IMG/VR virus record: IMGVR_UViG_3300013101_000058
Span: 1-31,061 of that record
Direction: 5' to 3' (one strand)
DNA from: a virus
DNA: 31,061 nt
Shown here: one piece after another, positions 10,379-31,061 of the stretch
Position numbering within the stretch: the stretch's first letter is position 1
Layout: every line of letters begins with the position of its first letter
Translations under genes and position numbers: made by a program
The notes under the pieces: model-generated
Database searches by the model: none
The model's input: only the letters and a program-made list of their open reading frames with translations
What the model was told of the DNA's origin: nothing

Positions 10379-13300
10379 ATCGGCGTCCAGATTCCCGGCA
10401 CCTTCAAACCCCTGGCGATGTCCTCAGGCCCGCAACACACCTGCCAATGGGCAGGATCGGGGTTCGAGAAGTACTGCCCCCACTTAAAGACCGGGATGTC
10501 GGCCCTGCCGTTCTTGCCATACGCCCGAATGGCCATGACACGATTCGCCACAGACAACAAAGTCGAGTTCGTGGTCCTTCTGCGCCCAAGGTCCGGATAG
10601 TTGATGTCGACAGCAAGGCCCCAAGCATGATTGCTCCACGTCTTCGTGCCAGACACGTACCGGCAGTTGTATCCAGACGCCGTCTTCACGACATAGCCCT
10701 CTTCCCTCATGATCTGACACAAGGCCTTGAAGGCTTGCCACGCTCGACGGTCAACCGTTGCGTCGCTCCACGAACCGCTCGCCCCGAAGAACTTGTAGCT
10801 CGCCTGGTAGCTGCCACCACAGTTCGGAGGAATCGCATGTTTCGTTCTCGGACCAGAACCGGGCCAGTACTCGAAGGCATGGGCGTTGGAACAGTTCAGC
10901 ACCGTACCCACATCCGACGACCCGCCACTCCCGGAACCTGGGGGCTCGACCCATCCGTCATCAAGGGCAGCAGATTCGCCGTCCCAGTCCCACTCGGGCC
11001 ACACCCATGCGGGAAGGTCAGGGAACAGATATTCGTAGTCGTCAGCAACCCTCGGAAGGTCCTTCGGGGGGGTCGGTGGGACGTACTTGAACCAGTCGTC
11101 CGGATACGAAGTCTCTACGTCTGGGTCCCTCGGGTCAGGGATCAGGCCAGCCGACACGAGATAGGCGAACAAGGTCGGTGACATGTCGTTCGCCTGAACG
11201 TGCCATTCGGCATCAGGCCCGTTACCCAGCCAATGCGTGTCGATGTCCATGTACCAAGTACCGGCATCCATGTCCATGACAGAATTCACACCCAACAGAT
11301 AATGGATGTATGTCTCTGACGTGATGCGTTCGAAAATCTGCACCTGGTCGTCCGGTTCGAGGGCTGGCATCCCCGGAATGCGGAACTTCGTCTTCCGGTA
11401 AGACCAGTGAATCCACAACGCAACGAGATAGGCGAACTTGTTGACCTCAGCCCGTGCCTTCTCTTCGTCATTCAAGTCCTGCCCGAACGGATAATCAGCA
11501 ACGAGCATCGACCTGACCTGTCCAGCCAACAGCGACACATCCGTCACCTGACCGATGTTCTGCCCCTCCACCGTCTGCGGAATACCCTCAGCTGCCCAGT
11601 CGGGTACGAACGACCCCCAGATCATCGAACCCTCGGGGTCTGGGTCCTTCTGTACGACCACGATCTCGGACCTCAACGCGGCATCGTCGATGCTCACACC
11701 AAAGTCGAGAAGGACATTATCTTCCGTGATGATCGGGACAGACGTCACACCCCGATATCCCTGACCGGATACGAAGTTCCCGGTCTTCCAGATATTCGGC
11801 GGACGCCACACATATCCACCCGTAGCGTCGACGTACCCGATGAACCCGAGAATCTCTTTGATCTGATTGATGCCGTCCTGAACGGACTTGTTGTCCCAAT
11901 ATTCGGCAGGAATACAGGCCGGTTCTATCGGATAGGCACCGCTGTCGAAAAAGTCACCCCAGACACGACCGCCCTCAGCGCCCCAATCGTCACGAAGGAA
12001 CAGCGGGTCTGAATCGAGGCTGGAACTAAGGAGCTGTATCTGTGAATCGCCAGAGCTGATCCGCCCCTTCGGCCAGTAGAAGCCCGACCAGGCAAGGAAG
12101 AGCTTGATGATGTCCGTATAGTCACTCACATTTCCGTCAGGATTCGTGACGATCTCGTCGACCCACTCTTCGGTCGTGGTCGACGTAGAGGCTGCCGTGT
12201 AGGCCATCGCCTGAAGCTCGTAGACACCTGCCCGATAATCCCCATCGCTCCTGCCCGACACTCCGCTGAAGTCCTGCAAGTCGGTAAAGACGAGCCGCAC
12301 AAAGTCGACAGAGTTGTACATCTCTCCGAGGTCGACCGTGACCCAGTCCTCGCCGGGAGGGACGTTGATCTTCTTGACGTACTTGATGTCCGAATCGTTC
12401 GGTGCGGCAGGCTTCGCGTACCGGTTGTATGGGACGGTCGCCGTGCCCTGCCACACACCGTTGTTCTTGACACCCACGTAGCAGGTGTACCCACCCTTCC
12501 ACGGCTTGAACCGGACACGACTAACCGGCTCATGGTTGCAGGCGCCATCAACCCACTCATACGACCAGTCGGCAGAAGGTAGATGGTTCCTCATCGACAC
12601 CCACCAGGTCGTTTCGTCATCATCGAACGCATGAGCCGTGACATGTCCATACACACTGATGCTGTAATACGCGGTCGACGAGTCGTACCTGCTGTTCGAC
12701 TGGACAGCGACGTTGGGGCCAAGAGCTTCGGGCGTCTTCTCTGTCGTGTCCTCCGACCTGTCCTCATAGGTAGTCTTCACATACGGCCCGCAGAAGTCGA
12801 GTTTGTCTGACTCCAGCGGGACGATAGGCGGATAGAGACGCTGCTCCATGAGAAGCTTCGCCGTGTCACGACACGTCAATGTGATGAGTCCGTCCGCCCC
12901 CATATCGACCTTGTCGATCAGCCACACACCGGTCTGTACGAGCTTCGTGTCGTTCCACGGATAGCCAGCACCGTCGGTCCCATACCCCTGGAACGTCTTG
13001 ATGACCCTGTTTGGGAGAAACATGTCGACCCAGGTCGGGTCGGGGGCGTGCGCCCACGGGTTCGGTGCCCCGCCACCCGTGTTGGCCACACCACGCCGAT
13101 AGGTGAACCCGCCAGGAGAGCCGAACTCCATGAGTTCACGTTTCGTTGGTCCGCCAGCATCCCCGCCTGTGGCTTCGATGTAGGACTCGTCAAGGTTCTC
13201 GTGAACGTCTACCTGGCTAGCGTTGAGGAACGTCAACGTCATAGATGCGGCATCGGTCCCGAGACGCCGATCGACGGTACACGTCTTGATGGTGGGAATC

Positions 13301-13843: not shown

Positions 13844-16800
13844 CACACGGCTCCCATCGTCAACGTCGATGACCCTGGAGCGTAGCGTGCACTGGCAGTG
13901 GTTGCCTGAGCGCCAAGCCCCTCGTTCACAGCATTGGCCACCTTCGCTATATCAACGTCACTGTTCACGTAGATAGCAATGTCCTGCTGTCGGTTGTCCT
14001 GATAGTTCACACCCAGAGAGTCCGCAGTCAACGACCTTCGCACCTCGAACAGGGTAGGTAGCCTGATTTGTCCAGGAATGTTGAACTGCATATCCGACAG
14101 GTCGTCGGTCATACCTTCGATCAGGCCGTTGATCTCCTGCCACAGCTCCTTGCCCTGGCGTGTTGACGTATCCACCTCACCAAGAAGCTTCTTGAGCCCA
14201 GAGATGTACTGACTCTCCGTGATCGTCCCCTGGTCCAGGTCGAACTGGAGGGTGAAGAGGCGGTCGTCGAAGAACGCAGCAACGTCAGCCATCTGTGCTT
14301 CCTTCACTGCCAGGTCGGCACGAGCCTGCTCAAGGTCACCCATGTCGGGAACCTTCTGTGACTGCAAGGCAGCGACCAGGTCGAGGGAAGCCTGAATGTA
14401 CGGGTCTGTGATGTCAGAACCGAGACGCCGCTGAATGTCCTCAAGCTCCAGAGCCTGATCCATCAGGGCAGCCTGCATGTTGTTCATGGCCTTCTTGACG
14501 TTCGACCACTCGACTGACCCCCGACCGAATATCTTCGCTGTCAAAGCCAGCTCGCGGGACAACATCGTCAACTCAAGCTGATTCGCCTTCATGGCATCGC
14601 GGACACTGATCTGCGACTCCGCATAGGCGCGAATCTCTGCCTGTTCGGCTTGCGCGACCTGCGCTATCAGTTCGTTCTTCTGAACGAGGGCCGACGCAAG
14701 CTCGCCAGGATTCAGATATCCGCCAGCGATGTCCATACTGATGCCGACGAGCTGTGCCTTCAAGCTATTGATGCTGTTCATAATCGGACCCTTGGCCCGC
14801 TGGGCAGCAACAGCAATCTGCTTGTTGACGCCGAACTGGGTGCGTCTTCGGGCGTTCTGGTCAACGGCAATCCCAGACTCGATGTTGGATGCGGCAGCCT
14901 CGTCACCGAACTCGCGGGCCTGGTCAGCAGCAGCCTGCTGTGCCTCGTTCAAGGCATCCTTGGCTCTCTGAGTCTCCGCCCAACCAACAGCTTCAGCCAC
15001 GTTCTGCTCGGCTATTGCCAAAGCCAGAGCCATGTCGTTGATGGCTTCCTCCCTGAGGAGGTTCCTGAACTGTATGCGGGCCTCGATGCCAGCCTGGCCC
15101 GCAAGCTTCAGGTTCCCGCTGGCCCTCATGATGAGAATTTCACGCTTGATGCGCTCTGCGTCGCCTTCGCCTGGCTTCGCACCAGCAGCCATGCGGTTGT
15201 TCATGTCTTCAAGCTGCGTCGCCATGGACTGCACGAGCATGTCGTTCGCCCTGCGGATCAGCTCCTTGTACGTCTCATCGTTGAAGATGTCCTTGCCCTG
15301 CTCGGCAATCGCCCTGATGCCCTCAGAGATGCGACGCTGGTCTATGGCGATCTTGCCCTTCGTCTTCTTACCGAGCTGGAAGTCCGTGTCGAGAGCGTCG
15401 AACTCGTTCTGAAGGTTCTGCACCGAGTCCGAGAGCTGCTTGGGGAGAATCCCGAACACAGAAAGTATCTGCGTGTACTTCTCCTCAGCTTTCCTGGTCA
15501 GCTCCCTCGCCAGCTCCATATCACCGGCGCCCTGAGCTTCTGCAGCCTGATCCTCAAGGTCGGTGACGAGTCTCGAAATGTCGGCTGACCCAGCCCCTCG
15601 CTTGAGGCCAATAGTTCGCCTGTCGTCTGGCGAAATGTCGGTGACGCTGTAATCGGTCCAATCTATCGAATGGACCTGTTCGCGCATGGCCTGACGCTGA
15701 ACCTTGAGATACTCCTTCTCGGCTGCCTCGGCTGCCTTCTTGCGCGCCTCTGAAGAACCGGTGACAGACTCGGGGTTGTACTGCTGATAAGCAAGCTGCC
15801 ACGTCTCACTACCGCCCGCAATCGCGCTGGGGTCCTTCGCTGCACGCGTCAAGTTGACGATGTCGGTAAGGAACGCGCCTAGATACGCCTGCAAAGCCGG
15901 TGACGCCGACGCCGCAACACCGCCAGCCTCGGCAGTCGACTCGTAACGTGCCTTCGCCAAGAGAAGGTCAGCGTCTATTCCGGTCAACCCCTCCTCGGCG
16001 ATCTTGAGGCGAGCAGCCTGCATCCCCTCCCCGATGATCTTGTTCCCCTCCCTGAGGGAATCAGCGAGCTCCTCTGTCCTTCGACTGAAGGTCTTCATAC
16101 TGGAGTACATGAGGGCCATACCACCGATGACCCAACCCCACACCGGAATCGCCCTGGCAAGACCGAGAGTGAAAGACTTCATCGCAGCACCCTGGGCGAT
16201 CGCGGCAGCCCCGAGATAGGCAGGACTCATCCTGGCCATCCCGGTCATGCCACTCATCGCCGTACCGGCGAACTTGGACCCAAGCCCAGCACCGGTACCG
16301 GCAGAGATTGCGGTAGCGGTAGACGCGCCCCAGACCATGCTGGTGCTGAACGCCAGCTTCTTGAAGAGTGCCGTGCCGGTAAGGGCAGCGAACGCCTGGG
16401 CAAGGGACTGTGTGACCCTCACGACGCCGGTGATGGCCAACCCGAGGGCAAGGAACTGAACGGTCCAGTTGCCGATACCCTTACCGAACGGCGCCCACAG
16501 CCCGTTGAAGAACTCCTTCAAGTCGATAATGGCCCGCAGGACGTTGTTGACTGCCGCAGTCATGGCGTCGAACCCGCTGACGATGAGTTTGAGTGACGTC
16601 ACTCCGCCGAGACGCTCGAAGTTCTGTGCCAACTCCTGGAAGCCGGACTTGATAGACAGGAGCATCTCGGACACGGTGCGTGACAGGTAGCTGAACCGGG
16701 TCTCTGCGGCGCCAGCAGCCTCGCCCGCGGAACCCACGATGTCTTTCTGTAGGTCCGACGTGCCAAGAGCCGCAGCGACGGCTTCAAGCTCGCGACGCTG

Positions 16801-19134: not shown

Positions 19135-20262
19135 CAGGTCGCAACCCGTCTGCTAGCTCGTTGGACATCATCGGAACGTCGTCAGCATCGTCATACGAAG
19201 AACGCTTGCCCGTCTTCGCATTCCTCTCGTCCTCAACGTTCGTGAACCACACGTCTAGCAACCGGTCGCTCCACCAGATGTGGCGAGGCGGATGCTCTTT
19301 CCTCGGCAAGTTCTCAAACCAGGATATCACCTGAAGGGCAGTGTTCACGGCCACAACGAGAACCCACGGTGCGTCGTCGATTCCGTCCGCCCAGAAGGAT
19401 GAAAAGCCTCCGCCAGTTCCGCTGACAGCCCGTACGAGGCTCAGGAACTGGGGAGACTGAGCGAGTTTTTTAGCTCCTCGCTCCCCATCTCTAGTTCCTC
19501 GTATGCCGCGTACAGCTCGCCACGGATGTAGTTGGGCAGCTCCATCACGGCGTACGGTTCACTGAAGTACAGCTCACGGACAGCGTCAGGTTTGCGACAG
19601 GCGTAGTAGAGAAGCTTCGTCTGATACTCCTCGTACCAGTAGAGCTTCCCCTCGGTCTCGATCCCGATTTTGATGAGTTCGTTCTGGAGTTGAGCGATGG
19701 GCTTGTTGACATGCTTCTCACGCGCCGGGAGTGCCAGTTCGGTCTCGCGGGTCGCGACCTCCGCCTGGAACTCTTCCTGCGAACCCAACAGCTCGATCAG
19801 CTCGGCGTCCTCCTCACGGAGAATCTGGTCGTCTTCGTCGATGTCGGCGTTGTACTTCTCGATCTCTTCGATGCGTAGCGACACGCCGTTCAGAATGTCG
19901 ATGTAGCTGCGAGAGTCATCGTCGCCATCCCACTGTGAGCCTTCGTCACCGTACAGAACCTCGTGATACGCCTGCTGCCTGATATCGCCAGAGTTGTATT
20001 CGAGAATCTCGTCGATGAGCTCGTCTTTGTCTTCCTGCGCCCTCACCATGAGAGCTATCGAGTCGTAACGCGGACCCTCACGCTTGTCGTACTGGATCGT
20101 GTACGTGGCCAACTTCGCGTTGGCAGCATCGAGAGCTATCTGTTGCTGATTTGGACCGGGACGCCGCACAAAGATTTCGTACTCGACCCCCTCAGAGTCC
20201 TCGATGGTGACACTCTTGCCCTTGTTGAAGAGGTCTTCGAGATGTGGTGTCTTCTTTGCCAT
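19124..20262 (-). CDS. Tail assembly chaperone, -1 frameshift fusion product (gpGT-like, 379 aa)
   Basis: The shorter chaperone frame contains the heptamer A AAA AAC at 19465-19471, in the phase required for a -1 slip. After a slip the frame stays open through KLAQSPQFLSLVRAVSG to a TAG at 19124. The result is 266 residues of the first frame plus 113 of the second, including WFENLPRKEHPPRHIWWSDRLLDVWFTNVEDERNAKTGKRS. Such G/GT pairs, with the fusion placed just before the tape measure, are conserved in siphophages; both forms coat the tape measure and recruit tube subunits during tail assembly and are absent from the virion. The T part has no good start of its own (only a GTG at 19354). The frameshift itself is inferred, not measured. 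Confidence 0.88.
19441..20262 (-). CDS. Tail assembly chaperone, unshifted product (gpG-like, 273 aa)
   Basis: The open frame reaches 20298, but the start is placed at ATG 20262 (MAKKTPHLEDLFNKGK), five bases after GGAGG; the longer reading would run through the regulatory gap. The protein is acidic and helical (IRQQAYHEVLYGDEGSQWDGDDDSRSYIDILNGV; EEDAELIELLGSQEEFQAEV), ending EELKNSLSLPSS with a TGA at 19441, seven codons past the slippery site. It lies directly between the major tail protein and the tape measure, the standard place for this chaperone. At 273 residues it is longer than lambda gpG (140). It is the first gene after a strong hairpin terminator and a TTCACGTGAA element. Confidence 0.88.
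   Translation of the reverse strand: MAKKTPHLEDLFNKGKSVTIEDSEGVEYEIFVRRPGPNQQQIALDAANAKLATYTIQYDKREGPRYDSIALMVRAQEDKDELIDEILEYNSGDIRQQAYHEVLYGDEGSQWDGDDDSRSYIDILNGVSLRIEEIEKYNADIDEDDQILREEDAELIELLGSQEEFQAEVATRETELALPAREKHVNKPIAQLQNELIKIGIETEGKLYWYEEYQTKLLYYACRKPDAVRELYFSEPYAVMELPNYIRGELYAAYEELEMGSEELKNSLSLPSS
19465..19471 (-). other. -1 ribosomal slippery site A AAA AAC
   Basis: Read on the minus strand the zero-frame codons are CTA AAA AAC TCG. The heptamer A AAA AAC fits the canonical X XXY YYZ form, and a -1 slip turns AAA AAC into AAA AAA and continues CTC GCT CAG into the open downstream frame. It lies 21 bases before the zero-frame stop. Confidence 0.85.
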
Positions 20263-20293
20263 TCGTTCCTCCAGTCGTTCACGTGAAGGAGTG
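20263..20293 (-). promoter_or_regulatory. TTCACGTGAA element and leader before the chaperone gene
   Basis: A perfect 10-base palindrome TTCACGTGAA lies at 20278-20287. On the minus strand TACACT lies just upstream, a weak -10-like hexamer. The leader downstream reads ACGACTGGAGGAACGAATG, nearly the same as the leader of the gene that starts at 24095. The element follows a hairpin terminator and is one of four copies, all in intergenic gaps. It may be a promoter-operator; activity is inferred. Confidence 0.55.
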
Positions 20294-20300
20294 TACACAC

Positions 20301-20330
20301 AAAAGTAGGGAGGACCGGAGTCCTCCCTAC
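20301..20330 (-). terminator. Rho-independent terminator after the major tail protein gene
   Basis: A perfect 11-bp inverted repeat, GTAGGGAGGAC with GTCCTCCCTAC, surrounds a 4-base loop (20305-20330). On the minus strand it is followed by TTTTGTGTG. It lies 27 bases past the stop of the major tail protein gene and ahead of the chaperone leader, so it would end or attenuate the tail-tube transcript. The opposite strand has no T run after the stem, which supports minus-strand use. Confidence 0.8.
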
Positions 20331-20356
20331 TTCAGGGGCCTAGGACGGGGGAGGGC

Positions 20357-21544
20357 CTAGGCAGGGTCACCCTTGTAGACGCTGAGTGCGCCAGAACTCG
20401 ACGTGAACGCGAAGTCCGCTTCGAGCTTCGACCCAACACTGCCCTGCAACGGTGGGAGCGTGAACTTCGCATCCGTCACCATGAGTGTCTTGAGCGTCGA
20501 GCCGTCTGCTGGATCAGCGATCTTGATCTCGACCTCAAGCTCCGGTGGGTCCTGAGTTGCGTTCGCAATGTCGGTACCGGAGACTCCAGCCACAGACTGA
20601 ATCTGCCCGAACAGGGCAGCCACCGAGGTCGGCTTCATCGAGATGGAACCGGTTGTCTCTGGAACGTCGAAGTCCTGAGCGACCACCTGTGGGTTGCCGA
20701 ACTCCTCGTCACGCTCCAGGGTGACGCGCCAGTCGATGTTCGCAGACTGCACGCCGAGCCAGTCCGTATACGTCGGAGTCGCTGCACCGTCACCGAGACG
20801 CACGTAGATGTCACGACCGCGCACACCCGCAGGCTTCGTCGTGTCATGCACCGCCTGTAAGTACTCGGTTGACGTTGCCGAACCGTACACGATCTTGATG
20901 TTGTCCGTGCCAGACGGAGGAGCAACCATGAACGTGACGCCGGTCGCGGTGTTCGTGTAGTCAGTCCCAAGACGCATCCGCTCACCGTCTACCGAGACCG
21001 AGAGGCCGTAATAGTCGGAACCGGAGATCGTTGACTTGAACGCCGGGCTGTTCGTGAAGGTGAACAGGACCGTCGTGTCGTCACCGTCTTCGAGCTGCTC
21101 GAAGGCGGAACCCGGGATGTAGAACACTGAGTCGCCCCGCAACGTCGCGCTCATCGTCGCCGAGTCACTCAGCGAGAATGAATACGACATCGACTCCAAG
21201 GACAGTTCCGGGATCGCGATTGCGCTCGCGACCGTGAACAGGCCCGAAGTCTTGAACGGACTCAGAACATTGATCGGAACGAAATCGGCAAGATTGAACG
21301 CCGTACCGGCTGACTCCAGGTTGTCACCACCCGTGAGTAGCGATTCAAGTTCGGTTGTCGTGTCGTACGACTCCAGCTCGAACGTCAAGTCTGGGATATC
21401 TCTGATCGTCCCGACTGCTTCGACGTTACCAAGCTCTTCGAGTCGATCTTCGTTGACATTGATTCCTGACACGCCACCGGTCTGAATACGGTCGATGACG
21501 AAACCGCCAGAAACGTGGAGAATCTGTCCACCCTTGATGGCCAT
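20357..21544 (-). CDS. Major tail (tube) protein (395 aa)
   Basis: It starts at ATG 21544, seven bases after AGGAG. It is followed by a strong terminator and the tail chaperone pair, the usual place for the tube subunit. The N-terminal half has VEAVGTIRDIPDLTFELESYDTTTELESLLTG (residues 41-72) and the C-terminal half has NPQVVAQDFDVPETTGSISMKPTSVAALFGQIQ (residues 284-316); both follow the pattern V-x(n)-D-(I/V)-P-x-x-T-x-S/F, as in tube proteins. Between them lies a beta segment (SVSVDGERMRLGTDYTNTATGVTFMVAPPSGTDNIKIVYGSA, 183-223). At 395 residues it is about twice the size of a single-domain tube protein, so it may be a two-domain fused tube subunit or carry a surface domain. Confidence 0.85.
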   Translation of the reverse strand: MAIKGGQILHVSGGFVIDRIQTGGVSGINVNEDRLEELGNVEAVGTIRDIPDLTFELESYDTTTELESLLTGGDNLESAGTAFNLADFVPINVLSPFKTSGLFTVASAIAIPELSLESMSYSFSLSDSATMSATLRGDSVFYIPGSAFEQLEDGDDTTVLFTFTNSPAFKSTISGSDYYGLSVSVDGERMRLGTDYTNTATGVTFMVAPPSGTDNIKIVYGSATSTEYLQAVHDTTKPAGVRGRDIYVRLGDGAATPTYTDWLGVQSANIDWRVTLERDEEFGNPQVVAQDFDVPETTGSISMKPTSVAALFGQIQSVAGVSGTDIANATQDPPELEVEIKIADPADGSTLKTLMVTDAKFTLPPLQGSVGSKLEADFAFTSSSGALSVYKGDPA

Positions 21545-21605
21545 GTGTGGTCTCCTAACTAGGCTCGAAACGAGTCTATCACGTGAACGTTATGTGTCAG
21601 GACAC
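21545..21605 (-). promoter_or_regulatory. TCACGTGAA element and leader hairpin before the major tail gene
   Basis: TCACGTGAA lies at 21579-21587, with CATAAC just upstream on the minus strand. Between it and the AGGAG site a 7-bp stem with a 3-base loop (21561-21577; AGACTCG, TTT, CGAGCCT, one G-T pair) could protect the 5' end of the messenger. A small 5-bp palindrome (21594-21605) directly follows the stop of the upstream gene. This gap of 61 bases holds no gene. Confidence 0.5.
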
Positions 21606-22322
21606 TTACCTGAAGGCCGCAAACGATTTCTGCACCACAGGCCTGTACCTTCTCGCATCGCCAACCTTCATCTCGATCCATGCGTTCTCGATGAAGTGCT
21701 TGCCCTCAAACCCTTCACCCATAGTCATGCCGAGCGTGGACTTCTCCCCACCCCACGACTTCCGACGCGCGATCCTCTGCGGGCTCTGAGATGCCTGCCG
21801 ATAACCACCCGCCGTCGGGATCAGCCGGTCTGTAGCTGGCCCTTGCCCTGGCTCAAAATGGAAAGCTCTAGGAAGTACGTGAATCCCACCCGCCCACACC
21901 GAACTGTCAATTATCTTGGAGCTCGGCAGGTGGCGCTTCCCCGACAGGCCAAACTCCAGCGCACGCCACACTCGGTTCGTCGCAGCGTCTGCCCGGTCGA
22001 TGTCCGGCCAGCCGAAACCGACCCGGGAGCCTTTCTCCATCAATATACCGACGAACGCAGAACTCTTCCCTCCGAACGTGAAGTTCCCGGTCTGCCTGTC
22101 ACGCGTGCCGCCCTTGCCTTGACCCCTCTCGCCTCGACGGATGATGCTGGCATTGAAGATGGACTCGGCCCTGTTGTCGAGCTGGCCAATGAACTGTGCG
22201 TGCACGGCGTGGAGGTTCTCACGGAACTTCGGCACCGACTGAGCCAGCGCCGTTGGGAGTTGGGCCAGCGTCTCGTTCGGCCTGATCCTCAGGAACTCAC
22301 CGGACGCCTGGAACGCTGACAT
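21606..22322 (-). CDS. Head-tail joining region protein, neck/tail-completion-like (238 aa)
   Basis: The open frame reaches 22370, but the start is placed at ATG 22322, which overlaps the upstream stop (TGATG) and begins MSAFQASGEFLRIRPNETL. The protein is basic, with a helical first 60 residues (LPTALAQSVPKFRENLHAVHAQFIGQLDNRAESIFNASI) and a Gly/Arg/Lys-rich remainder (RRGERGQGKGGTRDRQTGNFTFGGKSSAFVGILMEKGSRVGFGWP). The first part recalls neck proteins of the HK97 gp10 group, usually encoded between connector and major tail genes, but the match is weak. It probably helps to join head and tail. No enzymatic motif is seen. Confidence 0.65.
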   Translation of the reverse strand: MSAFQASGEFLRIRPNETLAQLPTALAQSVPKFRENLHAVHAQFIGQLDNRAESIFNASIIRRGERGQGKGGTRDRQTGNFTFGGKSSAFVGILMEKGSRVGFGWPDIDRADAATNRVWRALEFGLSGKRHLPSSKIIDSSVWAGGIHVLPRAFHFEPGQGPATDRLIPTAGGYRQASQSPQRIARRKSWGGEKSTLGMTMGEGFEGKHFIENAWIEMKVGDARRYRPVVQKSFAAFR

Positions 22323-22594
22323 CAGCGCCTCCTGAGTTCGTTGTGGATAGCGTCGAGCTTGTCCACCCATTCCTGGTTGATGACCGCCGACTCGGACTTC
22401 ACGATGTCGATAGACAAGTCCTTGAACGCGTTGACCTGGTCAAGGATCATCTGACGGATGCGTTTCTGCATCTCGGTGCTGACCTGCGGAACTTCCACAT
22501 AGAGGTTCTCTTCAAGCCATCCGAGGATCGCTGCAGATGTACGGTTCCCCCTCACGGCGACAAGGTTCGCTACCGTTGAGTTGTTCCCTTTCAT
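22322..22594 (-). CDS. Small protein of the head-tail joining region, unknown function (90 aa)
   Basis: A 90-residue protein with an ATGA overlap upstream and a TGATG overlap downstream. It starts MKGNNSTVANLVAVRGNRTSAAILGWLEENLY and then forms what looks like one long amphipathic helix (EMQKRIRQMILDQVNAFKDLSIDIVKSESAVINQEWVDKLDAIHNELRRR). The length and helical character would suit a small connector or assembly helper. I do not recognise a family. Confidence 0.65.
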   Translation of the reverse strand: MKGNNSTVANLVAVRGNRTSAAILGWLEENLYVEVPQVSTEMQKRIRQMILDQVNAFKDLSIDIVKSESAVINQEWVDKLDAIHNELRRR

Positions 22595-23079
22595 GCGTTC
22601 GACCTCTCATCCACAACAGCGAACGCGCAGACGTACCAATGCTTCTGCCACGCGTTCACAGCCCTGTCGGGCTTACTTGTACCAGCAGACCGGTCCATGT
22701 ACTGGACAACGAACTCCTCGGTCGGAGTCGCCTCGCGATAGTCATATATCGAGAACCGCTGGTTCTTCATGACGTACCCATACACGTCCCCCACCACCTG
22801 TCGGCCAAGACCGTCCGACTCAGCAAACATGTCGACGTAAATCGGAAAGCTGATCTCCTCGGACTTGGCTCCAAGCTCCATGGGGATAGTGGCCGAATCG
22901 CCAATCGAGAACGCAATCGTGTTTATCGCCACCTCGTCATTGTCGTCAGGATATTCGTCGATGATCGTGATCGGTGCGAACTCCCCAGGAGAGAACCACC
23001 CGCGCGTCGTCAAGTCGGCCTCAATGGCACGCAGTATCGACTCCAGGATCATCCTCGTACGAAGGCCACCTTCAAGCAT
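22591..23079 (-). CDS. Putative tail terminator / head-tail joining protein (162 aa)
   Basis: The start is ATG 23079, overlapping the upstream stop (TGATG) after GGTGGT; an in-frame GTG at 23082 is the alternative. The N-terminus (LEGGLRTRMILESILRAIEADLTTRGWF) is an amphipathic helix followed by beta strands (EVAINTIAFSIGDSATIPMELGAKSEEISFPIYVDMFAESDGLGRQVVGDVYGYV). A helix followed by a sheet and a second helix is the layout of tail terminator proteins of the gpU type, which cap the tube and join it to the head. The position two genes before the major tail protein agrees. The assignment is by layout and position, not by a diagnostic motif. Confidence 0.62.
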   Translation of the reverse strand: MLEGGLRTRMILESILRAIEADLTTRGWFSPGEFAPITIIDEYPDDNDEVAINTIAFSIGDSATIPMELGAKSEEISFPIYVDMFAESDGLGRQVVGDVYGYVMKNQRFSIYDYREATPTEEFVVQYMDRSAGTSKPDRAVNAWQKHWYVCAFAVVDERSNA

Positions 23080-23555
23080 CACTCACCACCACTCGCTGAA
23101 CACTGAACCTGATATACGGTGAGGTCGTTCAAGCCCACGGCGGGCTTCCAGAACCGGAAATACCAGCTCTGATCTGAAGGTCCGATCGTTGCGTGGGAGA
23201 ACCCGTAGACCTCTTCGAACTCGTCCTCGAACATGGTCAACACCAGGGTCGTGGGGTTGAACTCCCCGACCTCCGTGTAGAAGGCGCCCTGTCTCCCCAG
23301 CGGGGAGAAGAACTCGTAGGCGCACAGGACCTGGGAAGGTGCCGGTTGTGTTTCGAGAATCGGGGCGGTCGTCCAGTCCCACGGGGAACCCTCACGGTCG
23401 TGCTCATCCCATTCGGCGTCACGCTCGAAATAGAACGTCGGCTGGTCATCCTCTTCGGAAGGCATCGCCATCACCATCGTGCGGCGAAGGGATTCCCTCA
23501 CCGAATCAGTGTTGATCGCTGCGATCGTCTCGAAACCACCAGCCGACTCTGCCAC
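23079..23555 (-). CDS. Putative head-closure / connector protein (158 aa)
   Basis: It starts at GTG 23555 (MAESAGGFETIAAINTD), eight bases after GGAGG; no nearby ATG is better placed. It is acidic and aromatic-rich (FYFERDAEWDEHDREGSPWDW; YGFSHATIGPSDQSWYFRFWKPAVGLNDLTVYQV), mostly beta in character, with no catalytic motif. The stretch VLTMFEDEFEEVYGFSHATIG resembles small beta-barrel stopper proteins in general layout only. Lying second after the major capsid gene, it is likely to be part of the head-tail connector. A firm family name cannot be given from the sequence. Confidence 0.6.
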   Translation of the reverse strand: MAESAGGFETIAAINTDSVRESLRRTMVMAMPSEEDDQPTFYFERDAEWDEHDREGSPWDWTTAPILETQPAPSQVLCAYEFFSPLGRQGAFYTEVGEFNPTTLVLTMFEDEFEEVYGFSHATIGPSDQSWYFRFWKPAVGLNDLTVYQVQCSASGGE

Positions 23556-23558
23556 GAG

Positions 23559-24095
23559 CTACTCCTCCGGTGAGGTCTTCACGACTTCCTTCTTCTTCGG
23601 CACTTCCTTCTTCACCTTCGGCACTACGGCGACACGTTCGACAGCAGCACCAGGTTCGATGCTCTGCTTCCTCTCCTTCACCGTGTCAATCGCCGACTTC
23701 GGTGCGTCCTCAGCGACGAGGGCCTCCAACAGTCGTCCGAGTGTGACGGGCGAAGTGACCTTCGCTATCGCCTGCTTGGCCGTCATGTTCTTGGCGAGAA
23801 TCTCGTGCACCGTGGTCACCAACTCAGCGTCGGTAAGCGAATCGGACGATTCGATCTCGTCTTCGTTCGTTTCCTGAGACCCCTTGATTAGCACGAACGT
23901 GCCGTTCCTAAACTGGTCGAGGCCTACTTCCGCCGCAGCGTCCTGATTCACCTGTCGGTCGAACGTCGAAACGGTGAACGTGCGCCCACCCATGACGGTC
24001 TTCCCTGTTTCACGACCCTGCCTGTCGAGGACCTTCATCCACCGCATACCTGCTGCAGTGTTCTTCCAGACCTCGGTACTTTCGTTTCCGGACAT
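23559..24095 (-). CDS. Capsid-adjacent head protein with Lys-rich tail (178 aa)
   Basis: The ATG at 24095 follows AGGAGG by five bases. The N-terminal half (RWMKVLDRQGRETGKTVMGGRTFTVSTFDRQVNQDAAAEVGLDQFRNGTFVLIKG, about residues 18-72) follows a pattern I recall from a protein encoded directly after the major capsid gene in many actinophage-like genomes. The middle is helical (DAELVTTVHEILAKNMTAKQAIAKV) and the C-terminus is low-complexity and lysine-rich (VVPKVKKEVPKKKEVVKTSPEE), which may contact DNA or another head protein. It is the first gene after the capsid-unit hairpin and a TCACGTGAA element. Its exact role is unknown; a head or connector-associated protein is most likely. Confidence 0.68.
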   Translation of the reverse strand: MSGNESTEVWKNTAAGMRWMKVLDRQGRETGKTVMGGRTFTVSTFDRQVNQDAAAEVGLDQFRNGTFVLIKGSQETNEDEIESSDSLTDAELVTTVHEILAKNMTAKQAIAKVTSPVTLGRLLEALVAEDAPKSAIDTVKERKQSIEPGAAVERVAVVPKVKKEVPKKKEVVKTSPEE

Positions 24096-24130
24096 TCGTT
24101 CCTCCTGTCGTCCGTCACGTGAAGCATAGA
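24096..24130 (-). promoter_or_regulatory. TCACGTGAA element and leader before the 23559-24095 gene
   Basis: TCACGTGAA lies at 24115-24123, directly downstream of the capsid-unit hairpin. On the minus strand TATGCT lies just upstream, a weak -10-like hexamer. The leader that follows (ACGACAGGAGGAACGAATG) matches that of the tail chaperone gene at 18 of 19 positions. A role as promoter-operator is inferred from its repeated placement. Confidence 0.55.
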
Positions 24131-24158
24131 CGAAGCCCCCGGAGAACCGGGGGCTTCG
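24131..24158 (-). terminator. Strong hairpin after the major capsid gene
   Basis: A perfect 12-bp inverted repeat, CGAAGCCCCCGG with CCGGGGGCTTCG, surrounds a 4-base loop and begins 17 bases past the capsid stop. The sequence after it on the minus strand (TCTATGCTT) is only moderately T-rich, so it may be a terminator of reduced strength or a 3'-end stabiliser of the capsid messenger. Confidence 0.7.
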
Positions 24159-24175
24159 TGCTAGCTGCTCGCCTG

Positions 24176-25123
24176 TTAAGGCATGATACTCGTATCGACA
24201 AAGCGCCGTACGCGCTCGGGATGCGAGAGGACTCCACCAAAGTCCTGGCGACCGATGTAGTGCCAGTACCAGTTGTCCTGCTCGACATATTCCTTGGACT
24301 TCAGTCCACCGTACATGGCGAACATGCCTGCGTCGTCACCGACGACGTACAGCTCGTTCGCGGGGATGAAGGACGTTCCGTCCTCATCCTTCCAGTTGCG
24401 GACCTGGACCACGGATGCTCCGCGATACACGCCCAACCGCCCACGCATCCGAATTTCTTCGAGTGCCTCATCGGCGAAGCCGGTGAAGTCGGCGATCTGG
24501 TCAACCATCGTTGACCGTCCGTACAGTGTGATGACGCCCGTTTCGGATGCGTCCCGAACCTCACGGATGGCCGTATTGAGCGCCACCTGGTCCACAGAGG
24601 TACCAGAGACGTAATACGGGCTTCCGGAGCCGATGGCAGCTTCGATGAGGGCCTTGATCTGCTTGTTGACGCCCCAGTCGAGACGCTTCACGGCAAGACC
24701 ACGCAGAGTGGCAGCGCTCTTAGCGAAGCCAGACTGCATCTTGTCCTCGAACTCGTAGACGTGGAAACCCAGGGTGTCCCGTGGAATCTCCATCGCCTCG
24801 CTGACCATCGCGCTGGCCTCGATGTGTCCACCCTTTGCGATGAAGAAGACCTTCAGGCCTGTCTCCTCTTCAAGGATGACTCTGTCATCGAAACCGACAC
24901 GGTCGACGCTGATGATCTGGTCGTAGAAGGTCTCGAATTGGAAACCTTCGAGGATGGACTGCGTAAGGACCGCTGCCATCTCCCGCCGCCATTCCGGGTT
25001 CTCCCAGTTGGCCGCGGCCTCTTCGTTGACCTGATCCATCAACTTGGCTGCTTCAGCTCGTTCTTCGGGAGAACGACCGTAGTTGTCAATGACTTTCTTG
25101 AACACCTGTGTGCTTGTAGACAA
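24176..25123 (-). CDS. Major capsid protein (315 aa, TTG start)
   Basis: By position (after scaffold and decoration genes, before the connector genes) and by character this is the shell subunit. The start is TTG at 25121-25123: an in-frame TAA lies directly before it, the next in-frame ATG is about 28 residues downstream, and a very strong site, GGAGGTGATC at 25127-25136, is correctly spaced. The N-terminus is helical and charged (SPEERAEAAKLMDQVNEEAAANW), as in HK97-type subunits. Next come FETFYDQIISVDRVGFDDRVILEEETGLKVFFIAKGG, the long helix RGLAVKRLDWGVNKQIKALIEAAIG and a mixed domain ending SHPERVRRFVDTSIMP. An HK97-type fold is likely but not provable from sequence. A hairpin follows the gene. 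Confidence 0.85.
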   Translation of the reverse strand: MSTSTQVFKKVIDNYGRSPEERAEAAKLMDQVNEEAAANWENPEWRREMAAVLTQSILEGFQFETFYDQIISVDRVGFDDRVILEEETGLKVFFIAKGGHIEASAMVSEAMEIPRDTLGFHVYEFEDKMQSGFAKSAATLRGLAVKRLDWGVNKQIKALIEAAIGSGSPYYVSGTSVDQVALNTAIREVRDASETGVITLYGRSTMVDQIADFTGFADEALEEIRMRGRLGVYRGASVVQVRNWKDEDGTSFIPANELYVVGDDAGMFAMYGGLKSKEYVEQDNWYWHYIGRQDFGGVLSHPERVRRFVDTSIMP

Positions 25124-25126
25124 TTA

Positions 25127-25136
25127 GATCACCTCC
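25127..25136 (-). promoter_or_regulatory. Extended Shine-Dalgarno GGAGGTGATC for the major capsid gene
   Basis: Ten consecutive bases complement the conserved 3' end of bacterial 16S rRNA, with the GGAGG core eight bases from the TTG start. It decides the start of the capsid gene and probably compensates for the weak start codon. Confidence 0.8.
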
Positions 25137-25721
25137 CTATCGAAGAATTACTGCGTCGAGGGTCTTCAGGTCGTTATCCACGGCGGTCACTCGGAGGAAA
25201 GCCTCCGAAGCAGTGGTCGTCACTGCCCAGTAACCCGACGTGTTCCAACCGAGAAGTTCACCAACCTCGACTGTGGGGGTTGCCGTACCGAGACCGTCAA
25301 CCATGGTGACGGCTGCTCGTGTATTTTCGTACGTCAGTCCCGGTTCCGTGGTGTTGACGTCCGTGTTACGGAGCCACACCTTTACACCTGGTCCGCTGAG
25401 CACCTGAACCATGCGCCCGTTAGGGGCAGTGTCCAGGTCCTGGGGAAGCTGGCCCGCAGCCCCACCGAACGGTGGGGAATTGAACGTCTGCGAATCATGC
25501 TCGTACCACAGGATGCCGCAGGAATCAGTCGCAGTGTCGCCACCACCACTGATTGCGGTCGCGGTAGCCTGGCGAATACGATCCGTATCACTCGGATCAA
25601 TCTCCACCATCGTACCGAGACGCAGCTCAGTTCCGCTGGCTAGGCCACGGAACCGTCCCTCGCGGACCAAGTTCGTGAAACGACGCACTCCGAAGTTTCG
25701 GGTTGTCGTGCTCGAACCCAT
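25137..25721 (-). CDS. Putative capsid decoration protein (194 aa)
   Basis: The ATG at 25721 follows a near-ideal site AAGGAGGTGG by about seven bases, so high expression is expected. The gene lies between scaffold and major capsid genes, where lambda-like phages encode a gpD-type decoration protein. The protein starts MGSSTTTRNFGVRRFTNLVREGRF and is largely beta, rich in Thr, Gly and Val (LGTMVEIDPSDTDRIRQATATAISGGGDTATDSCGILWYEHD; VEVGELLGWNTSGYWAVTTTASEAFLRVTAV). The segment GSELRLGT-type turn followed by GILWYEHD fits proteins that bind the outer shell surface. The role is inferred from position and expression signals; it could also be another minor head protein. Confidence 0.68.
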   Translation of the reverse strand: MGSSTTTRNFGVRRFTNLVREGRFRGLASGTELRLGTMVEIDPSDTDRIRQATATAISGGGDTATDSCGILWYEHDSQTFNSPPFGGAAGQLPQDLDTAPNGRMVQVLSGPGVKVWLRNTDVNTTEPGLTYENTRAAVTMVDGLGTATPTVEVGELLGWNTSGYWAVTTTASEAFLRVTAVDNDLKTLDAVILR

Positions 25722-25736
25722 CTAGTCCACCTCCTT

Positions 25737-26354
25737 CTAAGACTGCGTCGAAGTGAGACCGGACAGGAAGCTCTTGACTGCTCCCGTTTCCGTTCCCTCT
25801 TCGCCTGCGGTCACTCGTGTCCCGTCGAAACTGGACTTCGGTGCATCTTCGCTGTCTGGTGTCTCCACCGCTGCGACTGCCACCTTGATGTCAGCGACAT
25901 AGCCGCTGAAGGCATCTTCATCCATTTTCGCCCAGGACGCCTTGCGTGCGTCTACTTGCTCGTCCGAGAAGTTCGCCACCGCCTGAACCAACTCAACTCT
26001 CTCATCGGCCAGGGCTTCGAGACGGTCACTTTCCTCGCGGTCAGTGATCGTGGACTGGAGACTCGCAAGTTCCGTGTCCTTCTCGGTAAGCGCCTTCTCG
26101 GCCTCTTCGAGCTGTTCGTTCAGACGAAGGATTTCTTTGTCGGTCAAGGCCGAAGCCTCTTCCAACGCCTTCTCGACGGCAGACGCCAAGAGCTGCTCGT
26201 GCTGCTCTTCGTTAAAGATCGCCTGATCCGTCACGTCCTCCTCCTCATGTTCAGAGGCTGCTTCCGTGCAGAATGGACAGAACTCATCATGGACAACTCC
26301 TTCTGGTTTGATCTCCAGAAGGGCGTCGTGCAAAGTTCGACCTGTCACACCCAT
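25737..26354 (-). CDS. Capsid scaffolding protein with N-terminal H-C-C motif (205 aa)
   Basis: The start is ATG 26354 (MGVTGRTLHDALLEIK), seven bases after AAGGA; an in-frame GTG at 26369 would overlap the regulatory palindrome. The central part is highly charged and predicted coiled coil (ASALTDKEILRLNEQLEEAEKALTEKDTELASLQSTI, about residues 60-105), typical of scaffolds. The C-terminal third is Ser/Thr/Glu-rich (ETPDSEDAPKSSFDGTRVTAGEEGTETG) and the extreme C-terminus would bind the shell protein. The N-terminus has H22-x3-C26-x2-C29 (VHDEFCPFCTEA), unusual for a scaffold. It lies between the protease and the decoration and capsid genes, and the protease probably degrades it during maturation. 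Confidence 0.82.
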   Translation of the reverse strand: MGVTGRTLHDALLEIKPEGVVHDEFCPFCTEAASEHEEEDVTDQAIFNEEQHEQLLASAVEKALEEASALTDKEILRLNEQLEEAEKALTEKDTELASLQSTITDREESDRLEALADERVELVQAVANFSDEQVDARKASWAKMDEDAFSGYVADIKVAVAAVETPDSEDAPKSSFDGTRVTAGEEGTETGAVKSFLSGLTSTQS

Positions 26355-26410
26355 ATACACATCCTTCACGTGAAACTATAGACGCAAACGAGATGCAGTT
26401 GAGCGCACTC
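26355..26410 (-). promoter_or_regulatory. TTCACGTGAA element before the scaffold-decoration-capsid unit
   Basis: A perfect palindrome TTCACGTGAA lies at 26365-26374 and its last bases form part of the AAGGA ribosome binding site. TATAGT, five of six matches to a -10 box, directly precedes it on the minus strand; no clear -35 box is seen. The gap of 56 bases lies between the protease stop and the scaffold start. A promoter for the capsid unit, with the palindrome as operator or core, is inferred. Confidence 0.58.
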
Positions 26411-27142
26411 TTACGACGACATGGCGATGTCCATGAGGCGCTGCCACTCGCCGGAGGACAGGACATCCGTCTCGGACTCACGGTTGACGTACTGTTCCGT
26501 CAGCTCACGAGCCACCTCAGTGATGTCGGCGTCACCCCATGCTGGTTTCTCTGGAGGGAAGATGAGTGCTCCGCCGAGGAACGTCGGATTGATGAAACGT
26601 CTCGGCGCCCCTGCCTTCGCAAGATGCTCACACGTCTCATGGGCCTCAGCACGGAACGGGAATATCTCGTCACATACCATGCACTGTTTCTTCTCAGCGA
26701 CACATTCCATTGAATACCAAAGCTGATCGGCTTCGTGTGCGTCCCTTGCTGCCTTCGCAACGTTCGGGAAGTTCGCACCCCACAACACGGCGAGTGCCTG
26801 AATCTCGGGAAGGGAGGTCTCGCCCGCGGCCTCACGGTGGACGATCTTGGTCTCAACGAACGTTCCGACCGGTCGGTCCCAGCGATGGAGAACGTTCAGG
26901 GGAGTGTGGCGAATCGTTGATTCGCCCGACGCCATGTCCTCCGTCGTCCAGAAATGACCGTTCTTGTTCACGGCGTTCGCCTGAACATAACGACCGGCGA
27001 TCCAGAGGAAGCTGTCGTTCGTCTTCGCCCCCATCCACTCGGATGCAAGCTCGCGCGGCGGCGGGTTGTCGCCATCGACGATGTACGCCTTGGCTGTCGC
27101 GTAGAACTTGCCGTTGGCTTCAGTGATGAACGGGTCCATCAT
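26411..27142 (-). CDS. Capsid maturation protease (prohead protease), cysteine-knuckle type (243 aa)
   Basis: It starts at ATG 27142 (ATGA overlap with the portal stop) or at ATG 27139, better spaced from GAGGAGGA. The pattern fits prohead serine proteases: a first beta block (FLWIAGRYVQANAVNKNGHFWT), a catalytic His86 in PLNVLHRWDRPVGTF, and a catalytic Ser144 in QLWYSMECVAE. Directly after the serine come C147, C154, C157, C171 and H173, which could form a zinc knuckle; I recall such a cysteine-rich insert in actinophage capsid proteases, followed as here by GAPRRFINPTFLGGALIFPPEKPAW. The enzyme would cleave scaffold and capsid proteins inside the procapsid. It lies between portal and scaffold, the standard order. 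The third catalytic residue cannot be fixed by eye. Confidence 0.8.
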   Translation of the reverse strand: MMDPFITEANGKFYATAKAYIVDGDNPPPRELASEWMGAKTNDSFLWIAGRYVQANAVNKNGHFWTTEDMASGESTIRHTPLNVLHRWDRPVGTFVETKIVHREAAGETSLPEIQALAVLWGANFPNVAKAARDAHEADQLWYSMECVAEKKQCMVCDEIFPFRAEAHETCEHLAKAGAPRRFINPTFLGGALIFPPEKPAWGDADITEVARELTEQYVNRESETDVLSSGEWQRLMDIAMSS

Positions 27143-28737: not shown

Positions 28738-29072
28738 CGTGACAGCTCCACTTCTTGTCTCCGCACCTCGATGAGACGAGATGCTCCCTTGAATTGGAAC
28801 TCGATGAGCTCCATAACCTTCGCTAGCTGTGTGACCCTGAAGGTCTTCAATCTGCGATTGTTCCCCTCGACCCGGATGATCTGTAGATGAATCTCCGTGC
28901 AGCGGGCCATGTACCCCATGCAGGTCGACATGATTACGTCCGGCATGGCGTCTTCGAGGTTGCGAAGCGTGACGACCATCGCCATGATCTCGTCTTCGAG
29001 AGACACGTCGCGCCCGACTTCGACCAGTTCGACGGGGAGGCCCGTCTCTTCCTTCACCTGAAGTTTGACCAT
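28734..29072 (-). CDS. Small helical protein between terminase and portal (112 aa)
   Basis: A 112-residue protein, ATG 29072, 18 bases after the terminase stop and overlapping the portal start by four bases. No clear Shine-Dalgarno is present. After a beta-like start (MVKLQVKEETGLPVELVEVG) it is almost all helix (SLEDEIMAMVVTLRNLEDAMPDVIMSTCMGYMARCTEIHLQIIRVEGNNRRLKTFRVTQLAKVMELIEFQFKGASRLIEVRRQEVEL). The position suggests a helper of packaging or portal assembly. I do not recognise the family. Confidence 0.62.
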   Translation of the reverse strand: MVKLQVKEETGLPVELVEVGRDVSLEDEIMAMVVTLRNLEDAMPDVIMSTCMGYMARCTEIHLQIIRVEGNNRRLKTFRVTQLAKVMELIEFQFKGASRLIEVRRQEVELSR

Positions 29073-29090: not shown

Positions 29091-30680
29091 CTACGCGAAC
29101 ATCAGAGGCACTACCTCGTGCTTAGTCCTCATCGACTTCAGGGCGTCGAGAGTAAGCAGCTCCTTGCCCACGATCATCATCGCGGCAGCGTCCAGGGTGT
29201 GGAACTGGCCACGGTTGAACGTCTTCTTCCCGTACGGGTTCGTCTCCGACCGTTCCCGATACCAGGTCGACCCCTGCCACTCGCCCAGGAACTCCTGGTC
29301 CCAGGGGAGAATGAACCGCTTCGAGTCGACGTACTCGCGAAGCTTGTCGTATCCGTACTCCTTGGCACGGGCATGAATCTCGAAATCCTTCGGGTTGTCC
29401 TCCGGCTCATGATCGTGATACCCGACGAGGAGCTTCTGGTCGGCTGTGTAGCCGATGATGCGGCCCTTGGCTTCGGGCTGCTCTGCAAGGAGGTCCTGGT
29501 AGAGAGGCAGGCCAAGCCCACCGCGGTCCATGGAGAACCGCCTCGGACTGTACGCGTCAAAGATCATCGCGACGACTTTGCGCTGGTCTGCCGCTGTGAT
29601 GCGTTGAAGGTTCAGTCGTGTGAGGAGCCGGAGCGCGACCTTCGCACGACCGATGGGTTCCTCACCGAACACGAGAATCTCGGACGGGTGATTCGTCATG
29701 CCAACGTCCATCCCCACCCAAGTCTCCTTCCATTGCTTGTGGGAGCCTGGGAAGTCGATGAGCATGTCGATAGTGGTGTTGTTGAGGTGATCGTCGTTGA
29801 TGCGTCGGTAGTAGTAGATGTCAGCGTTGTACTCGGAGTCAAGCTTGTCATCTACTGTTGCCATCAAGCGGTTTAGCACGAACAGTGGGTTCGTAGCGTC
29901 ACCATGAAGACCGAGGATGTTCCGCTTGTAGTCGGCACTGTCCCTCGACCCGTACGCCTCGATCTTGTCGATGCGCTCCTGGTCCGACCATGTAGGACGG
30001 TGCATACCGGTCAGCCGGTGAACGGACCACCCCGACCCTGGCTGCGAATGGCGATAGAACTCATCATGGACACCCTTCGACACGCCGTGGGCACGCCACT
30101 GCGCGCCCTCCTCGCCGTGCCGGAGCGTCTCGACAAGCTCGATCCAGCCTGCCTGCGGGAAGTCCTGTGACTCGTCCTGCTCTAGTTGAAGGGGGTGGAG
30201 GCCCTTCACTCCCTTGCCGTCCCTCTGGGGGATGCGTCCGAGAATCTTCGCGCCGTTCATGAAATCGACCTGGAAAGGGCGATGCTTGAAACCCTTGCCG
30301 GTCCTTGTCGGGAGCAGCTCTCTCGTGAGGCGCGTCTCCTTGATGCGGTCCTCGATACGGGACGTGAGAGGCTGGAGGTGGACGAGCTCGGGTGCGGTAA
30401 CGACCATCTCCGCTCCTGGATGCTGAATGCCGAACGCCCAGCCTCGCAGGATGATCGAAAGGGTCTTCCCGATGGCACGTCCGCACTGGTCGATGACAAA
30501 CGTGGACTTGTCGCGCCACCATGCGTACTGGAAGTCCCAGCAGCGGAATATCTTCTCGTCGTTCATAGCCATCGGGTCTTCCCAGCAGAACTCGGCCAGG
30601 TCGATCCCGGCATGGTCCTGAATCATGGCGACGAGATACGACTCTTCCTCAGAGAGGTCCCGCTTCGTTGTAATGGCCAT
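29091..30680 (-). CDS. terL: Terminase large subunit (529 aa)
   Basis: The start is ATG 30680 (MAITTKRDLS), overlapping the upstream stop as TGATG, with AGGGA nine bases before it; an in-frame GTG at 30701 lies inside the upstream gene. The ATPase half has a Walker A-type loop CGRAIGKT (residues 66-73), a Walker B-type segment LQLEQDE with D169 and E170, and a coupling-type segment SVHRLTGMH (219-227). The nuclease half has an RNase H-like acidic set: D325 in WVGMDVGMTN, D385 in FSMDRGGLG and D497 in FHTLDAAAMM. This motor pumps DNA into the procapsid through the portal and cuts the concatemer. At 529 residues it is a normal length. The preceding gene is in the small-subunit position. Confidence 0.95.
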   Translation of the reverse strand: MAITTKRDLSEEESYLVAMIQDHAGIDLAEFCWEDPMAMNDEKIFRCWDFQYAWWRDKSTFVIDQCGRAIGKTLSIILRGWAFGIQHPGAEMVVTAPELVHLQPLTSRIEDRIKETRLTRELLPTRTGKGFKHRPFQVDFMNGAKILGRIPQRDGKGVKGLHPLQLEQDESQDFPQAGWIELVETLRHGEEGAQWRAHGVSKGVHDEFYRHSQPGSGWSVHRLTGMHRPTWSDQERIDKIEAYGSRDSADYKRNILGLHGDATNPLFVLNRLMATVDDKLDSEYNADIYYYRRINDDHLNNTTIDMLIDFPGSHKQWKETWVGMDVGMTNHPSEILVFGEEPIGRAKVALRLLTRLNLQRITAADQRKVVAMIFDAYSPRRFSMDRGGLGLPLYQDLLAEQPEAKGRIIGYTADQKLLVGYHDHEPEDNPKDFEIHARAKEYGYDKLREYVDSKRFILPWDQEFLGEWQGSTWYRERSETNPYGKKTFNRGQFHTLDAAAMMIVGKELLTLDALKSMRTKHEVVPLMFA

Positions 30681-31061
30681 CAGCCAATATCCCTGATCCA
30701 CAGCTTTTGATTTTTTCGGAAGTGGTCGTCGATAGCATCATATTCGGGTATAGCGACATTCTCTATCCATTCGAGTATGTCGGGAAGGTCGACACTGAGA
30801 TGTTTGCGCTCCTCCTCATCCGTCCTTCGGTACAAGCCGACAAGCTTCTTGAGCTCGTTGAAGAGGTCCTGCGACTTGGCGTTCTGCTCGTCGCGATGGA
30901 CCCCGAACTCGTTCGCTCTCGCGAGGAGGTCGGACAGGTAGTCGGCCACGGACTGCTGTTCGGATTCGACCCGTGACTTCCTGCCGATGCCGATATGGGA
31001 CTTGATGTCCCGAATCTCCTTATCGACCTTGACCTTGTGGTCACGCACGGCCTTCTCGTCG
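30680..31061 (-). CDS. Putative terminase small subunit, N-terminus beyond the window
   Basis: The frame is open to the right edge (DEKAVRDHKVKVDKEIRD), so the beginning is missing; a GTG at 31048 is in frame but cannot be confirmed as start. The visible 127 residues are charged and helical (VESEQQSVADYLSDLLARANEFGVHRDEQNAKSQDLFNELKKLVGLYRRTDEEERKHLSV), followed by DLPDILEWIENVAIPEYDAIDDHFRKNQKLWIRDIG. The position directly before and overlapping the large terminase, and the helical oligomerising character, suit a small terminase subunit that binds the packaging site. The DNA-binding part would be upstream of the window, so no helix-turn-helix is seen here. Confidence 0.6.
   Translation of the reverse strand, partial: DEKAVRDHKVKVDKEIRDIKSHIGIGRKSRVESEQQSVADYLSDLLARANEFGVHRDEQNAKSQDLFNELKKLVGLYRRTDEEERKHLSVDLPDILEWIENVAIPEYDAIDDHFRKNQKLWIRDIG

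Follow-up and report, generated by a model that had tools for sequence, protein, structure and literature searches.

What is a short palindrome doing in the gaps between the late genes of a phage? The question comes from a 31,061-nucleotide stretch of viral DNA, positions 1 to 31,061 of IMG/VR record IMGVR_UViG_3300013101_000058 (the window), whose minus strand holds every structural gene. A sequence-only reading of the window had noted the motif TCACGTGA in four gaps of the structural operon, at 26355-26410 (g1), 24096-24175 (g2), 21545-21605 (g3) and 20263-20356 (g4), and had proposed a phage-specific promoter or operator. We found the four copies where it had placed them, the full palindrome TTCACGTGAA at both 26365 and 20278, and gaps that sum to 291 bases, as it had estimated. 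The window holds five copies of TCACGTGA, one per gap (26366, 24115, 21579, 20279) and one intragenic (4940), compared with a mean of 1.3 and a maximum of 4 in 100 dinucleotide-shuffled windows. Scaling the shuffle mean to the 291 gap bases predicts about 0.012 copies; the four gap copies are genuine and far above chance. Our analysis suggests, with some reserve, that the palindromes are probably operators of a phage LexA-type repressor, placed on late promoters and repeated within genes as a stoperator-like array.

Recognisable PHROGs are few among these structural genes, comprising the large terminase (29091-30701) and some weakly matching tail or unknown families; labels like capsid, tail tube and chaperone are drawn from position and weak similarity. 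Phage GX15bay, from mangrove soil, has the same gene order. Searching with gene 24176-25123, which is probably the major capsid gene, yielded 27 related IMG/VR loci. Close relatives have TTCACGTGA in the corresponding gaps. The g1 site has the same sequence in six of them, reads TTCAGGTGAA in the nearest relative of the window (G1, capsid-like protein 94-95% identical) and is TTC-N4-GAA in more distant ones. Distant relatives carry TTC-N4-GAA at the same gaps with other centres: ACCT (G8), ACAC and its reverse complement GTGT (L013), ACTC and its reverse complement GAGT (G11), GTAG (L017), and GCAC and GCAG (L018). The common form is TTCRNNYGAA, of which TTCACGTGAA is one lineage's version, and the idea that TCACGTGA was itself the consensus had to be given up. 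Across 15 contigs, exact TTCRNNYGAA is present at 38 of 59 gap junctions versus 3 of 84 control junctions, a comparison among related fragments of common descent in which p values overstate the evidence and its independence. The dyad is also found at a fifth junction, between terminase and the next gene (g5), exactly in eight relatives and with one mismatch in two more. In the window this site is the minus-strand TTCAGGTGAA at 29053-29062, at the terminase/p112 junction; the sequence-only reading had overlooked both it and the fifth TCACGTGA at 4940. Conservation at the homologous gaps of relatives, which that reading had named as a check, is seen. The distant relatives L043-L045, GX15bay and the Mycobacterium phage Cosmo were also checked, and none shares the dyad.

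The flanks of 195 sites give a symmetric consensus, A-W-C-S-TTCR-NN-YGAA-S-G-W-T. The R of one half and the Y of the other change without regard to each other (A:T 67, A:C 51, G:T 43, G:C 34; Fisher p = 1.0), which argues for a DNA dyad bound by a dimeric protein and not for an RNA stem. As expected for a dimer on DNA, one relative (G11) has TTCACTCGAA at g1 and the reverse complement of TTCACTCGAA at g4.

The gap sites are coupled to promoter-like sequences. A TANNNT hexamer ending no more than 8 bases from the dyad accompanies 38 of 50 gap sites versus 26 of 157 other sites, commonly overlapping the first T of the dyad or stopping 2 bases short of it. In the window, the TTCACGTGAA of g1 (26365-26374) adjoins the minus-strand -10-like TATAGT (26375-26380). 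At g2, the minus-strand TTCACGTGAC (24114-24123) adjoins TATGCT (24123-24128, minus strand). At g3, the minus-strand TTCACGTGAT (21578-21587) adjoins TAACGT (21587-21592, minus strand) upstream of the tail tube-like gene. The TTCACGTGAA of g4 (20278-20287), upstream of the chaperone-like gene, begins 2 bases past TACACT (20290-20295, minus strand), and the g5 site begins 5 bases past TATGGT. Three of the hexamers that had been singled out earlier (TATAGT, TATGCT and TACACT) fit TANNNT; the fourth, CATAAC, is better read as the TAACGT that adjoins the dyad. Given a normal distance from -10 to start, transcripts would begin inside or just past the dyad. A search for TTGACA at 15-19 bases gave mostly 2-3 of 6 matching positions, and a separate scan placed a single, weak promoter-like match in this region, at g3. 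GC-rich inverted repeats, probably terminators of the preceding genes, end a few bases before the -10 at g2 and g4, so that these two gaps look like self-contained terminator-promoter-operator units. A terminator scan left the repeats unflagged, probably because of short T tails, and they are visible in the sequence. In several relatives the dyad is directly followed by the start codon of the post-terminase gene (GAAGGATG). The claim of a phage promoter or operator thus stands as far as conserved sites on -10 boxes are concerned. Judged by a refuting condition that the sequence-only reading had set, equal frequency inside genes, a pure promoter element is doubtful: the motif is also abundant intragenically, a distribution that fits an operator with a further use within genes.

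Next to the g3 dyad, slightly upstream and after the stop codon, the window (21600-21607, AAGTGTCC) and the same gap of L005, L006, L008 and L010 share a conserved RACTGTCC, which might be a -35 or another protein-binding site. The neighbouring gene, 21606-22370, is 31-40% identical to its relatives and evolves far faster than the other genes of this conserved block. The remaining junctions had been described as overlaps or gaps under 20 bases, which is wrong for 19355-19440, where 86 bases separate the chaperone-like open reading frame (ORF), if left unextended, from the next ORF. That gap has no full dyad.

In a correction to the sequence-only reading, the dyad also turns up outside gaps. 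The window has 18 copies of TTCRNNYGAA, most of them within genes, and two partial sites accompany these 18 full ones. Fourteen copies lie in complete ORFs, compared with 1.3 in synonymous-codon shuffles (standard deviation 1.1; none of 200 above 5), an over-representation of about 10-fold. The same shuffles revealed no excess of TTC-YNNR-GAA (1 versus 1.1) or of spacers of 3, 5, 6 or 7 bases between TTC and GAA. Within the structural genes of relatives, observed and shuffled counts were 27 versus 5.4 in clade A, 6 versus 1.1 in clade B and 9 versus 3.0 in clade C; distant relatives showed no excess (5 versus 4.8). In an unbiased scan, TTC-N4-GAA headed the dyads with 3-base halves in clades B and C and in the clade A relatives, and in clade D TTCG-N2-CGAA headed those with 4-base halves. 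One relative, G8, carries 46 sites in 53.7 kb. With sites both on promoters and inside genes, the conceptual likeness to stoperators that the sequence-only reading had drawn is upheld. The intragenic dyads of the window are TTCAGGCGAA at 26976-26985, 11189-11198, 10281-10290 and 1683-1692 (the first and third also in G1); TTCGTCTGAA at 26119-26128, again shared with G1; TTCAGTCGAA at 16080-16089, in the tape measure-like gene; TTCGTCCGAA at 7969-7978; TTCGTGTGAA at 5869-5878 and 4114-4123; TTCACGTGAA at 4939-4948, which contains the fifth TCACGTGA; TTCAGCTGAA at 4663-4672; TTCACATGAA at 2977-2986; TTCACGCGAA at 1466-1475; TTCAAGTGAA at 598-607; and TTCGCCTGAA at 234-243. The tetramer CGAA is itself in excess in the coding sequence of the window (261 versus 155 in synonymous shuffles, standard deviation 9), and dyads explain only part of this.

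Which protein might bind such a dyad? The sequence-only reading had offered no candidate, and the best one we found is a conserved LexA-type protein. Reading the contigs of relatives, we spotted it as a small winged-helix protein among the genes upstream of terminase. The Pfam family PF01726 (LexA_DNA_bind) matched in 12 records, two of them below cut-off, and was present in every motif-bearing contig reaching more than about 3 kb upstream of terminase (G1, G3, L008, L009, G10, G11, G12 and G14). It was the top Pfam match for all nine proteins tested, with eight above cut-off and that of G1 below. These proteins comprise 83-95 residues and gave no peptidase match; the C-terminal S24 peptidase/dimerisation domain is absent. 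A profile search of PDB led to LexA (1lea, E value 4e-6), and the first fold match of an AlphaFold2 model (mean predicted local distance difference test score 86) was the LexA-DNA complex 3jsp, with a template-modelling score of 0.66. Sequence and fold alike thus lead to the N-terminal domain of LexA; the winged-helix class is secure, but MarR-type and other winged-helix proteins score similarly to LexA. PHROG 3502 (phrog_3502), a family of unknown function, matches all nine. Four close relatives (G3, L008, L085 and L087) have a TTCACGTGAA 0.2-0.26 kb before their lexA-like gene, an arrangement that suggests feedback on the operon of that gene.

The recognition helix of the protein and the half-site of the dyad match clade by clade. 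Half-sites are TTCA(C) in clades A and B, TTC(A/G)(T) in clade C and (G)TTCG(T) in clade D. The corresponding helices read RSTVQFH(I/L)N or RSSVQ(F/W)HIN in clade A, RS(T/S)(V/A)QFHIN in clade C and RSSIQYH(V/I)D in clade D, so that RSTVQFHIN is paired with TTCAC and RSSIQYHxD with TTCGT. A search based solely on the protein returned four non-redundant new phages, each with the dyad in its clade's expected form. L085 and L087 combine an A-like helix with TTCACGTGAA among their sites, and L093 and L098 combine a D-like helix with TTCGTACGAA, the clade D form. Dyad counts in L085, L087, L093 and L098 were 4, 4, 9 and 6, versus 0, 0, 1 and 1 for controls.

Other sequence elements were noticed in related phages. 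The distant relatives L044, L045 and L046 contain a different dyad, AACG-N2-CGTT, at 8 to 11 copies per 17-21 kb, which may be an analogous operator with a different half-site; the record of L045 also encodes a LexA-type winged helix. L064 (G13), which has no dyad, carries TTATCCT-YYCTAACRA at the gaps before its scaffold-like and after its capsid-like gene.

We infer that the LexA-type protein is the binder, that it dimerises and represses, and that the phage of the window carries its gene. A small, peptidase-free winged helix of the LexA DNA-binding family would probably sit as a dimer on (A W C S) TTCR NN YGAA (S G W T). The dyad at each of the five late-block junctions covers the presumed start and lies right at the end of a TANNNT -10, where a bound protein would block RNA polymerase; this location over the -10 and start point is why we favour repression. 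Such a block would govern when, or how strongly, each late transcript is made and, in some phages, would do the same for the operon that includes the repressor's own gene. The intragenic copies would provide extra binding sites, acting as road-blocks to elongation, as proposed for stoperators, or as a titration or silencing array. We found no relative of the capsid protein in genome contigs and no prophage, and the system may therefore serve lytic-cycle timing and not immunity. The fuller picture, in which a protease-free, single-domain LexA-type protein represses late promoters and binds a dense array of symmetric sites coded through codon choice, with half-site and helix diverging together from lineage to lineage so that each has a specificity of its own, is one we put forward only tentatively.

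Several observations weigh against a LexA-type repressor. The lexA-like gene is absent from the window itself: the contig ends 360 bases short of the start of terminase, its own copy would lie beyond, and G1 has the gene. Only some of the phages have a dyad near the lexA-like gene; in G1, G10, G11, G12 and G14 there is no full dyad close upstream of it, and the other clades likewise have none nearby. G13 encodes a LexA-type protein and lacks the dyad, although its helix, PSAVHFHIRK, differs. The agreement between helix and half-site covers few clades, the excess in clade D structural genes is not significant (4 versus 1.9), and TTC-N4-GAA comes only third among 3-base dyads when the window is scanned by itself. 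The contigs are partial, and the early region, absent from most genomes, could encode another regulator.

This last point bears on a serious though less probable explanation, namely that the dyad is an operator bound by some other protein, which phage or host encodes elsewhere, and that the LexA-type gene merely shares the block. Its link to that gene reflects descent as well as function, and most contigs lack an early region in which to look. Against this, helix and half-site change together, phages found through the protein carry the dyad in its expected form, and no further DNA-binding protein is seen in every contig. A CggR_N match in G8, considered as a regulator, was rejected as a RuvB-like helicase. 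We find it unlikely that the dyad instead serves positive control, as an activator site or as a component of a late promoter specific to the phage, resembling a middle or late promoter box. The sites do lie at late genes, and the gaps, which show no good -35 at the right distance, may hold promoters that need help, but the dyad sits downstream of the -10 at variable spacing, which is a repressor's position, and is abundant within genes without any -10.

Explanations that look to the host are considerably weaker. Phages might borrow host SOS control by carrying host LexA boxes, and the LexA-family link lends this some appeal. In other phyla, some LexA boxes read TGTTC-N4-GAACA. The actinobacterial box, tCGAAC-N4-GNNCGa (PMC9380542), has its half-sites reversed, GAAC-N4-GTTC has 0 copies in the window, where the actinobacterial SOS box CGAAC-N4-GTTCG is accordingly not found, and the site varies with phage lineage; we hold this explanation to be improbable. 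Still less credible is mimicry of parS, with binding by a host or phage ParB or Noc. The inner core of bacterial parS equals TTCACGTGAA, and TTC-N4-GAA also occurs in Noc sites, so that the window's lineage shares a 10-base core with them. The outer T (-1) and A (+10) of TGTTTCACGTGAAACA, however, flank just 2 of 195 sites, ten contigs together contain a single TTTCACGTGAAA, the core is altered in other lineages, and a search of 30 records, a good number of them incomplete, found neither ParB_N nor HTH_ParB (PF02195, PF17762). With no ParB family in these records and the outer bases missing, we rejected the parS/ParB reading. The least probable of all is an RNA hairpin or translation-start element. 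Several genes do have the dyad next to their start codon or ribosome-binding site, but many copies lie mid-gene and the halves lack base-pair covariation, with A facing C in 51 of 195 sites; independent variation of the halves led us to reject the hairpin.

Operators of a LexA-type repressor have partial parallels in known systems. LexA boxes are tCGAAC-N4-GNNCGa in Streptomyces (PMC9380542) and GGA-N5-TCC and CTAA-N5-TTAG in Bacteroidetes (PMC8565304). The system described here resembles LexA/SOS control in joining a LexA-type winged helix to a spaced dyad on promoters. It differs in its half-site, in the presence of sites at phage late genes and in gene interiors, and in a candidate that lacks the S24 peptidase and hence RecA-triggered self-cleavage. 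A distant relative of the candidate, gp13 of Cosmo (KP027195), is annotated as a 'LexA-like DNA binding domain protein' and is 35.6% identical over the domain. Cosmo likewise encodes a standalone LexA-type domain a few kb from terminase, but shows no excess of TTC-N4-GAA. CAA-N5-TTG is in three-fold excess in Cosmo (L081, L082; 71 versus 22), with no flank consensus. Our reading, if true, would suggest a function for phrog_3502 and for proteins annotated merely as LexA-like. The lineages would form a natural series, with half-sites TTCAC, TTCRT and TTCGT alongside helices RSTVQFHIN, RS[ST][VA]QFHIN and RSSIQYHxD, that makes specificity change in LexA-type domains directly testable.

A further parallel comes from cluster A mycobacteriophages (L5 and the TipsytheTRex immunity repressor), in which more than 20 repressor sites per genome lie in promoters and transcribed DNA, and stoperators are proposed to block initiation and elongation (PMC9283540). 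Those sites are asymmetric 13-base sequences, oriented with transcription and located in promoters and short intergenic spaces, and the protein on them is a monomer that has two DNA-binding domains (PMC9283540). The phages described here share with them the many copies across promoters and transcribed DNA (18 full sites in 31 kb, and 46 in G8). Unlike the asymmetric, oriented 13-mers, the sites here are symmetric dyads with equivalent halves, often intragenic, and the candidate binder is a single LexA-type winged helix. If the reading holds, binding sites are maintained inside genes through codon choice, and a second, unrelated protein family joins the few phage repressors that act at genome-wide sites.

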